Both the position numbers and the translations under genes were made by a program. Shown piece after piece: positions 48,461 to 50,992 of a stretch of DNA of 64,000 bases. Every line of letters starts with the position of its first letter. Within the stretch, counting starts at the first letter, position 1. Source of the stretch: Fluviicola chungangensis (GTDB lineage Bacteria; Bacteroidota; Bacteroidia; Flavobacteriales_D; Crocinitomicaceae); NCBI RefSeq assembly GCF_007558725.1, contig NZ_VLPL01000004.1, positions 1 to 64,000 of the forward strand, in the 5' to 3' direction. Below the pieces are notes generated by a model. That model saw only the letters and a program-made list of their open reading frames with translations. It was not told the DNA's origin and did not search any database.

Positions 48461-49672
48461 TTACGCCAATACTTCTTTCACTTTATCTGCTGCTTCCTGC
48501 AACAACACTGCCGAATGCACATTCAATCCGGATTCATCAATGATTTTCTTCGCTTCAACAGCATTGGTCCCCTGCAAACGAACAATGATCGGAACCGGAA
48601 TGTTCCCGATACTCTTGTAAGCATCAACAACCCCTTGAGCCACACGGTCACAACGAACGATACCACCGAAGATATTGATCAAAATTGCTTTTACGTTCGG
48701 GTCCTTCAAAATAATGTGGAATGCTTTTTCAACACGTTCAGCATCTGCCGTTCCTCCTACATCCAGGAAGTTCGCAGGATTACCACCTGAATACTTGATG
48801 ATATCCATTGTTGCCATTGCCAATCCGGCCCCGTTTACCATACAAGCCACGTTTCCGTCCAGTTTCACGAAATTCAATCCTGCTGCATCAGCTTCTACAT
48901 CCAATGGATCTTCTTCTGAAGTATCACGCATAGCTGCATAGTCCGGGTGACGGTACAATCCGTTTCCATCCAATGTCACTTTCGCGTCTACTGCAATGAT
49001 CTTGTTATCCGAAGTTTTCAATACCGGGTTGATCTCGAACATTGCCGCATCACACCCTTCGTAAGCATTGTACAAATTCACAACGAATTTCGTCATTTGC
49101 TTGAATGCTTCTCCTGACAATCCCAGGTTGAACGCGATCTTACGCGCCTGGAATGCCTGAATTCCCACACGTGGATCGATTTCTTCTTTGAAAATCAAGT
49201 GTGGTGTATCGTGAGCTACTGTTTCAATATCCATTCCTCCTTCAGTGGAGTACATGATCGTATTGCGGCCTTTTTCACGGTCCAGCAAAACCGACATGTA
49301 AAACTCTTCTACTTCAGCTTCTCCCGGATAATACACATCTTCAGCCAACAAAATTTTGTTAACCAATTTTCCTTTTCCGTTTGTTTGAGCTGTTTCAAGG
49401 TGTCCCCCAAGGATTCCTTTTACTTTTTCTTCTACCTGGTCAATACCTTTTGCCAAAACTACACCATGGGAACCTGTTTCCTGAACGATCCCTTTACCGC
49501 GACCTCCAGCGTGGATCTGTGCTTTTACCACATACCAGCCTGTTCCTGTTTCTTCTGTCAATTTTTTAGCTGCAGCGACTGCATCTTCTACTTTTTCTAC
49601 AACAATTCCGCGCTGGATTGCCACGCCGTATTTTTGTAAAATTGATTTTCCTTGATATTCGTGTAAGTTCAT
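48461..49672 (-). CDS. sucC: Succinate-CoA ligase (ADP-forming) beta subunit
   Basis: A 403-residue ATP-grasp enzyme of the citric acid cycle. It starts MNLHEYQGKSILQKYGVAI, the normal SucC N-terminus, and has KAQIHAGGRGKGI (nucleotide binding), FEINPVLKTSDNKIIAVDAK (Mg binding) and NFLDVGGTADAERVEKAF (CoA domain, beta-alpha contact). With the SucD alpha subunit it converts succinyl-CoA to succinate and makes ATP. The alpha subunit gene is not adjacent, as often in Bacteroidetes. Single gene with its own terminator. Confidence 0.95.
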   Translation of the reverse strand: MNLHEYQGKSILQKYGVAIQRGIVVEKVEDAVAAAKKLTEETGTGWYVVKAQIHAGGRGKGIVQETGSHGVVLAKGIDQVEEKVKGILGGHLETAQTNGKGKLVNKILLAEDVYYPGEAEVEEFYMSVLLDREKGRNTIMYSTEGGMDIETVAHDTPHLIFKEEIDPRVGIQAFQARKIAFNLGLSGEAFKQMTKFVVNLYNAYEGCDAAMFEINPVLKTSDNKIIAVDAKVTLDGNGLYRHPDYAAMRDTSEEDPLDVEADAAGLNFVKLDGNVACMVNGAGLAMATMDIIKYSGGNPANFLDVGGTADAERVEKAFHIILKDPNVKAILINIFGGIVRCDRVAQGVVDAYKSIGNIPVPIIVRLQGTNAVEAKKIIDESGLNVHSAVLLQEAADKVKEVLA

Positions 49673-49860: not shown

Positions 49861-49868
49861 TACATTTG
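49861..49868 (+). promoter_or_regulatory. -7 box of the phhA leader transcript
   Basis: TACATTTG is a perfect TAnnTTTG box and ends 4 nt before the ATG of the leader peptide, so the leader mRNA is probably leaderless. A -33 element is not obvious. Confidence 0.7.
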
Positions 49869-49872
49869 CCTC

Positions 49873-49935
49873 ATGAACAAACAAATGCACATCAGCACTT
49901 ATTATTATCAGTTTCTGAATCCAGGAACCGAATAA
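49873..49935 (+). CDS. Tyr-rich leader peptide of the phhA attenuator
   Basis: A 20-codon ORF (ATG 49873, stop TAA 49933-49935). It begins MNKQMHIST, then three tandem Tyr codons TAT TAT TAT (49900-49908), Gln, Phe (49912-49914) and LNPGTE. It is not followed by a coding frame but by a strong terminator and then phenylalanine hydroxylase, the enzyme that makes tyrosine. This is the layout of amino-acid leader peptides such as those of trp or phe operons: ribosome position on the Tyr codons would report the level of charged tRNA-Tyr. The ORF is too short for a normal gene call. The match of codons to the downstream enzyme makes the role very likely. Confidence 0.85.
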   Translation: MNKQMHISTYYYQFLNPGTE

Positions 49936-49993
49936 GTCGTTGTGCAAACTTTATAGCTGTGAAGCCCGGTTCTTTTTGAGCCGGGCTTTTTTT
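49911..49993 (+). promoter_or_regulatory. Transcription attenuator (segments 1:2, 2:3, 3:4) controlling phhA-phhB
   Basis: Four segments can pair alternately. Segment 1 GTTTCTG (49911-49917) with segment 2 CAGGAAC (49922-49928), 7 bp, 4-nt loop. Segment 2 AGGAACCG (49923-49930) with segment 3 CGGTTCTT (49967-49974), 8 bp, the antiterminator. Segment 3/4 is the terminator: AAGCCCGGTTC (49962-49972) with GAGCCGGGCTT (49978-49988), 11 bp, loop of five T, followed by a T run to 49993. A ribosome stalled on the Tyr codons would cover segment 1, free segment 2 for segment 3 and allow read-through. Confidence 0.8.
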
Positions 49994-50016
49994 ATTCACT
50001 CATTTTTTCATTTGAA

Positions 50017-50751
50017 ATGAAACAACAATTTGAAAAGTACACCCTGGAAGACCTTGCGGTTTGGTCGCTATTATTTGAGCGGCAGGTAGACAATCTGAAA
50101 CAGAAAGCATGCTCCGATTACCTGCAATCATTGGAACAAATGCAAGAAGTATTGAATGCGGATGAATTGCCGGATTTTGAGCGGATCAATCACTGGTTCA
50201 AAAAAAATACCGGGTGGGAAATCTATTGTGTTCCGGGATTGATCGACGTGGAAGATTTCTTCGATCTGCTGGCTGAAAAGAAATTCCCCTCATCTACCTG
50301 GCTGCGCTCAAAAGATAAGCTGGATTACTTGGAAGAACCGGATATGTTTCACGATATATTCGGACATGTTCCCCTGCTCTCCAATCCGACTTATTCCGAT
50401 TTTGTTCATGAATTCGGGAAACTGGGAAAACAACACAAAGGAAATACACAACTGGTTACGGAATTGCAGCGCTTATATTGGTTTACCATTGAGTTCGGAC
50501 TTATTTCAGAACAGGAGCAACTGCGCATTTTCGGAGCCGGGATCATTTCTTCTTTTCATGAATCGGTTTCCAGTATTTCAGGTAACGGAACAATCCACCT
50601 GGACTTTGACCTGAAAACCATTCTTGGAACAGCTTTCTGCACCAGTGAGATCCAGCAGAAATACTTTGTCATCAACAATATGGAACAGTTAAAAAACGCA
50701 ATTGAAATACTTACAAATACATATTCCCATGAATTGGAGCATCATAATTAA
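50017..50751 (+). CDS. phhA: Phenylalanine 4-monooxygenase
   Basis: A 244-residue bacterial-type aromatic amino acid hydroxylase. It converts phenylalanine to tyrosine with O2 and a tetrahydropterin cofactor. The iron ligands are visible: His112 and His117 in EPDMFHDIFGHVPLL and Glu159 in YWFTIEFGL. There is no N-terminal regulatory ACT domain, as in other bacterial forms. It is preceded by the Tyr leader peptide and attenuator and overlaps phhB by 23 bp. The attenuator fits product control: low tyrosine switches on the enzyme that makes it. The length is slightly below the usual 260-300 residues. Confidence 0.95.
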   Translation: MKQQFEKYTLEDLAVWSLLFERQVDNLKQKACSDYLQSLEQMQEVLNADELPDFERINHWFKKNTGWEIYCVPGLIDVEDFFDLLAEKKFPSSTWLRSKDKLDYLEEPDMFHDIFGHVPLLSNPTYSDFVHEFGKLGKQHKGNTQLVTELQRLYWFTIEFGLISEQEQLRIFGAGIISSFHESVSSISGNGTIHLDFDLKTILGTAFCTSEIQQKYFVINNMEQLKNAIEILTNTYSHELEHHN

Positions 50752-50992
50752 TAGCTACCGAACCGTCATCCATTTCTCCAATCAGACAGAGCTTGCCTTC
50801 TTTCTTGTTGAAGTGGCTCGATTAGCGGACCAAATGGACCATCATCCGGATATGACCATCAGGCATTGCAATGAATTAAGTATTGCTGTGTATTCTCACG
50901 ACCAGCAACGGATTACCCAACGGGATGAGCGACTGGTGCATGGAATCAATGCCATCTATGACAAATGGAACACAAAAAAAGCGGATGAATAA
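50729..50992 (+). CDS. phhB: Pterin-4a-carbinolamine dehydratase
   Basis: 87 residues from the ATG at 50729 (MNWSIIINSYRTVIHF), which matches the usual start; an in-frame ATG at 50702 would add nine residues inside phhA. The catalytic motif is ADQMDHHPDM (His38, His39, Pro40), followed by the second His in YSHD and the RD near the end (TQRDERL). It dehydrates the 4a-hydroxy-tetrahydropterin made by PhhA, so that the cofactor can be recycled. The 23 bp overlap with phhA shows tight coupling. Its last codons lie inside the terminator hairpin. Confidence 0.92.
   Translation: MNWSIIINSYRTVIHFSNQTELAFFLVEVARLADQMDHHPDMTIRHCNELSIAVYSHDQQRITQRDERLVHGINAIYDKWNTKKADE

Follow-up and report, generated by a model that had tools for sequence, protein, structure and literature searches.

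Enteric attenuators switch between alternative 1:2, 2:3 and 3:4 stems. The enteric trp, pheA and his attenuators share with the phhA leader described here codons for the end product in the leader ORF and release by stalling, whereas the phhA leader is proposed to sense Tyr, controls a hydroxylase converting Phe to Tyr, has a start codon predicted at or near +1 and belongs to the phylum Bacteroidota. The signal read by a T-box is also tRNA charging, the RNA binding uncharged tRNA directly with no leader ORF. Tyrosine genes are listed as T-box regulated (PMC1262725), and these Gram-positive tyrosine T-boxes have RNA-level control of tyrosine genes in common with the phhA leader. Attenuation at the trpL, pheL and pheST leaders is summarised in PMC11802643, which also covers the AroR leader of Corynebacterium glutamicum, an aromatic-pathway attenuator likewise carrying Tyr in its leader peptide. 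AroR presents Phe-Tyr-Phe before aroF and tyrosine supply is reported to be without effect (Neshat et al. 2014, cited in PMC11802643); in contrast, the phhA leader has a Tyr run and a proposed response to tyrosine. Leader-peptide systems were known solely from Proteobacteria and Actinobacteria before Firmicutes were added (PMC2965389). Flavobacterial leader-peptide attenuation was suggested in 2021 for amino-acid biosynthesis operons of Flavobacterium psychrophilum (PMC9723704); these leaders have phylum and promoter type in common with the phhA leader, and no phhA or tyrosine leader was found there, the word 'phenylalanine' having 0 occurrences in the main text. Among the matches listed in the open-licence literature, no tyrosine-sensing leader-peptide attenuator was found and, in line with the first-pass annotation of this DNA, neither was an attenuator of a phenylalanine hydroxylase. 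The mechanism is of a known type, with the sensed amino acid, the target and the phylum setting this member apart, and, if the reading is true, tyrosine joins the amino acids sensed by leader-peptide attenuation.

Anatomy of the phhA leader

Here we describe the anatomy, conservation, co-variation, geometry and genome context of the proposed attenuator. The following features were located in the window, the whole 64-kb stretch of DNA that was analysed.

48461-49672, minus strand: upstream neighbour, with ATP-grasp_2 and CoA-ligase domains (domain matches)
49861-49868, plus strand: promoter -7 box TACATTTG, read directly; Bacteroidota consensus TAnnTTTG
49873-49935, plus strand: leader peptide ORF MNKQMHISTYYYQFLNPGTE, 20 codons, coordinates including the TAA stop at 49933-49935
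49886-49946, plus strand: 1:2 hairpin, which hides segment 2 (fold, permutation tests, shuffles)
49886-49891/49941-49946, 49897-49902/49932-49937 and 49911-49917/49922-49928, plus strand: stems of the 1:2 hairpin (fold)
49900-49908, plus strand: TAT TAT TAT, codons 10-12 of the leader, the tandem Tyr codons proposed as sensor
49923-49930, plus strand: segment 2, 5' arm of the 2:3 antiterminator, six-pair core 49925-49930 (fold, stall profile)
49967-49974, plus strand: segment 3, 3' arm of the antiterminator, lying within the terminator too (fold, partner-exchange test)
49961-49993, plus strand: 3:4 intrinsic terminator, hairpin 49961-49989 and T run 49987-49993 (seven T), -21.4 kcal/mol
50017-50751, plus strand: phhA, phenylalanine 4-monooxygenase, the regulated gene (TIGR01267, PF00351)
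50729-50992, plus strand: phhB, pterin-4a-carbinolamine dehydratase, overlapping phhA (PF01329)

The first-pass annotation had described a 20-codon ORF with three tandem Tyr codons, a terminator followed by a T run, and phhA as the gene behind them, and all of these were recovered where they had been placed or a base or two away, phhA beginning with the ATG at 50017 and scoring 267.9 bits against TIGR01267 (cut-off 264.75). The 2:3 antiterminator also appears in the fold. The 1:2 stem reported earlier is present (49911-49917/49922-49928) but forms only the core of a longer hairpin, 49886-49946, which had gone unmentioned. The three stems are mutually exclusive, and the leader region folds at -41.8 kcal/mol compared with a shuffle mean of -25.9 (z -4.61), a value equalled by 0 of 200 shuffles. 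A terminator serving an upstream gene is ruled out: the neighbouring gene lies on the opposite strand and points away, leaving the leader transcript as the only one that the terminator can serve. phhB is presumably co-regulated with phhA.

When both strands of the 64-kb window were scanned for a strict TAnnTTTG box followed at 2-12 nt by a short ORF, with a terminator at most 90 nt past the stop, two matches were obtained, the phhA leader and a second at ~43799 (MRKRMNR). The latter starts at the stop codon of a minus-strand coding gene and was judged to be due to chance.

The leader is very probably a ribosome-mediated transcription attenuator which senses charged tRNA-Tyr and controls phhA-phhB; its start site, stalling, termination and response to tyrosine are predicted from the features above. 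We infer that transcription begins on the leader AUG itself or no more than a few bases from it. When tyrosine is ample, the ribosome would reach the stop codon at 49933-49935 and cover segment 2, allowing the terminator to form and transcription to end before phhA. When charged tRNA-Tyr is low, the ribosome would stall at the Tyr codons, opening 1:2 and freeing segment 2, which would then pair with segment 3 ahead of the synthesis of segment 4; no terminator would form and phhA-phhB would be transcribed. Without translation, 1:2 is expected to form, with the terminator following.

Tyrosine codons in homologous leaders

The first-pass annotation had pointed to conserved Tyr codons and compensating changes in homologues as the evidence to be sought. 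PhhA homologues were therefore looked for among relatives and in the family, order and phylum, and the stretches upstream were taken, the loci being, for each search, its best matches up to a limit of 30, together with a further 40 stretches chosen among the matches listed. The first set counted 103 of 121 loci, six having no tblastn match and 12 (L019-L030) having been taken out by hand as distant or long paralogues, fragments or duplicates. Leader ORFs were picked by a rule that favours an ATG start behind a strict TAnnTTTG box and is blind to codon content, Tyr being ignored. With terminator calls limited to at most 155 nt from the gene, 62 of the 103 upstream regions have a called terminator and 41 do not; 54 of the 62 have a rule-picked leader ORF and eight have none. 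At least two Tyr codons occur in 53 of the 54 leaders, a Tyr-Tyr pair in 46 and three Tyr in a row in 35. Three of the eight terminator loci lacking a rule-picked ORF (L066, L088, L092) have Tyr-bearing leaders and the remaining five have none. Among the 41 loci without a called terminator, L014 and L015 carry a leader and terminator farther upstream, L067 has a Tyr4 ORF, and the matches of L040 and L041 start at a contig end.

A similar pattern was observed in the second set of 39 new regions, drawn from a titled collection, which remained after 41 of 80 loci were set aside as repeats of the first set. A terminator was called in 27 of these and none in 12, and a Tyr-run leader is present in 26 of the 27; the titles of these 26 include Psychroflexus, Flavobacterium, Lewinella, Saprospiraceae, Vicingaceae and Chitinophagales. 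Twenty-three regions meet the leader rule, 22 of them having at least two Tyr and a Tyr-Tyr pair and one (L193) a single Tyr, and four terminator loci without a rule-picked ORF likewise show Tyr runs. In the pooled sets, an in-frame Tyr-Tyr occurs in 66 of 75 leaders. Reading the other two frames gives 1 and 2, and 500 base shuffles give a mean of 4.0 and a maximum of 10. The conservation of Tyr codons anticipated by the annotation is thus borne out in both sets.

What is conserved bears on a second reading, that a direct RNA sensor, a T-box or a tyrosine-binding riboswitch, controls the gene and that the leader ORF is incidental. A strong conserved fold does precede the terminator, as such a sensor would have it. 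The conserved element is, however, a reading frame with Tyr codons and no aptamer sequence, no Rfam family reached its gathering score in 12 loci, and the T-box covariance model had no match in the window or in those 12 loci, being absent from the 18 sub-threshold matches in the window, of which examples such as PyrR and Thr_leader were judged to be chance. We regard a direct RNA sensor as extremely improbable.

In the window's leader, the ATG lies 4 nt past the end of the promoter box; the corresponding box of F. psychrophilum is located at -12 to -5 (PMC9723704), so that +1 of the window's leader is predicted to coincide with the A of the ATG, at 49873. A strict box is found 2-24 nt ahead of the leader start in 60 of the 75 pooled leaders, the gap amounting to exactly 4 nt in 19 of these 60 and to no more than 6 nt in 35. 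The leader mRNA may well be leaderless, as the annotation had also thought: the 4-nt gap fits a predicted +1 on the A. Such a start, if true, would be unusual, since 5.5% of mRNAs are leaderless in F. psychrophilum (PMC9723704) and ~3.7% of 5' UTRs are shorter than 10 nt in the Bacteroides thetaiotaomicron map (PMC7366714). If the leader does start at the promoter, a simple reporter would be enough to test leaderless translation in Bacteroidota.

Several phhA loci depart from the common arrangement. L075 and L077 (family f20) have a boxed short ORF and a terminator with leaders KCFCLN and KCFDLT that lack a Tyr run; L075 has two Tyr, and is counted in the 53, and L077 has one, in each case not ahead of segment 2. 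In family f19 (L062, L063, L065, L066), the leaders contain His codons alongside Tyr codons, MNPTPRTYIHHSHYYLQ being one example, and ~93-117 nt lie between the end of the terminator and the gene. In the genomes of L015 and L014, a stretch with inverted repeats, identified by eye (L145, L149), parts the leader and terminator from phhA and is perhaps an insertion in these two genus members. The phhA place of CP034120.1 (L158), titled Glaciecola amylolytica, is the same as that of G003 of the window's genus, and the title may be wrong.

Pairing partners, geometry and the sensed amino acid

RNAalifold applied to a plain alignment of 30 leaders recovered the terminator, with both-sided changes in 8 of 9 predicted consensus terminator pairs, and did not recover 1:2 or 2:3. 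The leaders align poorly, so 1:2 and 2:3 were tested by swapping partners between loci. These exchanges, and the distance measurements below, used 52 of the 54 first-set leaders, near-duplicates L032 and L087 being dropped, with distances defined for 50, and in the second set 22 loci, L193 being left out of the 23. Pairing of segment 2 with its own terminator arm averaged -9.61 compared with -7.50 (SD 0.27) for exchanged arms, 0 of 20,000 permutations being as good (52 loci), although the loci share kinship and the permutations ignore the tree. The second set gave -9.24 compared with -7.72, with 30 of 20,000 permutations as good (22 loci). For 1:2 pairing, none of the 20,000 permutations was as good in any of three tests (50 loci), and the pre-terminator stretch is more stable than its shuffles (mean z -2.66), with 49 of 50 loci below -1. 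The compensating changes looked for in 1:2 and 2:3 are therefore present and, as antiterminator and terminator co-vary and the Tyr codons are kept, the annotation's reading as a Tyr-sensing attenuator is supported.

The spacing between the last Tyr codon and segment 2 is closely kept, with a median of 17.5 nt, an IQR of 16.25-19 and an SD of 2.9 in 50 loci of the first set, compared with an SD of 8.6 for the spacing to the stop. Second-set leaders give a median Tyr spacing of 19 nt (IQR 18-20, SD 2.6; 22 loci), but their spacing to the stop varies about equally little (SD 3.1). In both sets, the Tyr codons lie about one ribosome footprint from segment 2. Closeness of the Tyr run to the release point of segment 2 is also what one might expect if the Tyr-rich peptide were a nascent-chain arrest peptide responding to free tyrosine or another ligand and not to tRNA charging. 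Arrest peptides usually keep specific residues conserved, whereas the residues flanking the Tyr run vary widely and it is the Tyr codons and their distance that are kept, so that arrest by the nascent chain appears highly improbable.

The effect of ribosome position was examined in a three-state model in which the RNA is folded before segment 4 exists, with a ribosome at the last Tyr, with none or with one at the stop. With the ribosome at the last Tyr, 2:3 rises above 0.5 in 67 of 72 loci, compared with 14 of 72 when there is no ribosome and 1 of 72 when it is at the stop, a result that is partly built in because segment 2 was found by complementarity to the terminator arm. Average 2:3 drops below 0.5 once the stall sits 2-4 codons past the last Tyr (footprints of 15-11 nt). 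In the full-length RNA of the window at equilibrium, the terminator outdoes 2:3 even when a ribosome is stalled, which means that the switch has to work kinetically. Classical attenuators likewise rely on kinetic timing.

The same attenuator might instead sense phenylalanine, or both aromatic amino acids, through the Phe codon at position 14. The annotation had set this aside on the ground that a stall at the Phe codon would mask part of segment 2, an argument that the model does not support, as a stall at Phe14 in the window still permits 2:3 there (0.85 with a +13 footprint); moreover, Phe recurs at this place in the six closest leaders (L001-L006). Conservation gives a different picture. 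Tyr is the commonest residue of the 54 first-set leaders, at 17.7% of 1004 residues compared with 3.7% for Phe, and the last Phe codon, in the 23 loci having one, keeps no fixed distance to segment 2 (SD 9.2). The pheA leaders of relatives described below carry Phe runs, so that the lineage apparently relies on Phe codons when Phe is what is sensed. Sensing through Phe14 is, on this evidence, improbable. Tyr, which the annotation had named the better signal, is preferred because Tyr and not Phe is conserved, geometry alone leaving Phe14 permissive.

Tyrosine supply and leaders before other genes

Prephenate dehydrogenase (tyrA) was above cut-off by PDH_N (PF02153) in 0 of 28 genomes, with two sub-threshold matches, and by PDH_C (PF20463) in 0 of 16, the control for the latter being positive in 12 of 14 and missing Bacteroides and Haloferax. 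As no tyrA exceeds the cut-off in the 28 genomes, PhhA is probably biosynthetic and the source of the cell's tyrosine. A catabolic role is disfavoured: two of the 28 genomes have a homogentisate dioxygenase above cut-off, and the window's genome is not one of them. Two relatives, G007 and G013, have neither tyrA nor a PhhA match, which counts against the reading proposed here. The findings support PhhA as the tyrosine route in the lineage, as in animals, beyond its place as a catabolic enzyme; bacterial phenylalanine hydroxylases would, if this is true, gain a biosynthetic mode of control.

Seven of the 28 genomes contain prephenate dehydratase (pheA). The window's genome lacks it and carries a DAHP synthase with a chorismate-mutase-like domain. 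Upstream of pheA in relatives (L239-L245), Phe-bearing short ORFs picked by eye precede a terminator in five of seven regions, none being seen by eye in the other two. The five leaders (MNMNNTTYYFFFSVSIHRNLERR, MINRMATYFTFDFFPISTRE, MNSRNNMSFFYYNSM, MTQNFNFFFFSFFHKCD, MKMTTLNNNFYFFWYVPITR) have runs such as YYFFF, FFYY and FFFF; four contain Tyr, and a promoter-like box precedes three of them, at gaps of 19, 22 and 8. In L239, two leader-terminator pairs seemingly stand in tandem. Judged by their codons, pheA leaders seem to read Phe, mostly together with Tyr, and phhA leaders Tyr. Tyr-only phhA and Phe-bearing pheA leaders offer a natural test of codon-specific sensing.

We lean towards a wider view in which Bacteroidota, foremost Flavobacteriales, would use promoter-fused attenuators generally, the leader AUG being the start and the codons tuned to the product of each step. 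On this view phhA would be tuned by Tyr alone, pheA by Phe either on its own or together with Tyr, hisG by His, trpE by Trp, and both cysE and a sulfite/nitrite reductase by Cys, and phhA would have the first tyrosine-sensing leader-peptide attenuator. Leader codon content would then aid prediction of the roles of unannotated genes behind such leaders.

A covariance model built from 30 leader sequences was run on 28 genomes. Its 21 top rows, with E values no higher than 1e-4, are all located upstream of phhA and are mostly loci used in building the model; G013 and G337 gave no row, and in G024 a hisG leader scored above the phhA leader. Ten loci from this search were viewed, eight of which have leaders, two before phhA and six before other genes; L150 and L152 showed no convincing leader.

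Leaders with His runs (HHHHH, HHHH) stand before hisG in L151, L156 and L148, 4-8 nt after a TAnnTTTG box and with a terminator between leader and gene. L153 and L155 have Cys-bearing leaders, MIVKTKITTCCMSLF and MKLINSYVMMCCPKQ, with terminators, which may possibly be cysteine-sensing attenuators. The gene in L153 is of the sulfite/nitrite reductase type (NCBIfam below cut-off, the sequence being cut by the locus end) and that in L155 is a serine O-acetyltransferase, with the EpsC model above cut-off. L126 (G000:C13, ~572 kb) and L154 each have a gene of the anthranilate-synthase type (PF04715) that is divergent from a DAHP synthase/chorismate-mutase gene; the best NCBIfam match of the L154 gene is trpE, below cut-off in a locus that is cut. 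Trp-run leaders lie nearby, MIFQQTMKFWWWQLTQKVTDA in the window's genome and one with WW in L154, and the DAHP synthase leader of L154 is MKNTTQILNFIWCIGIS.
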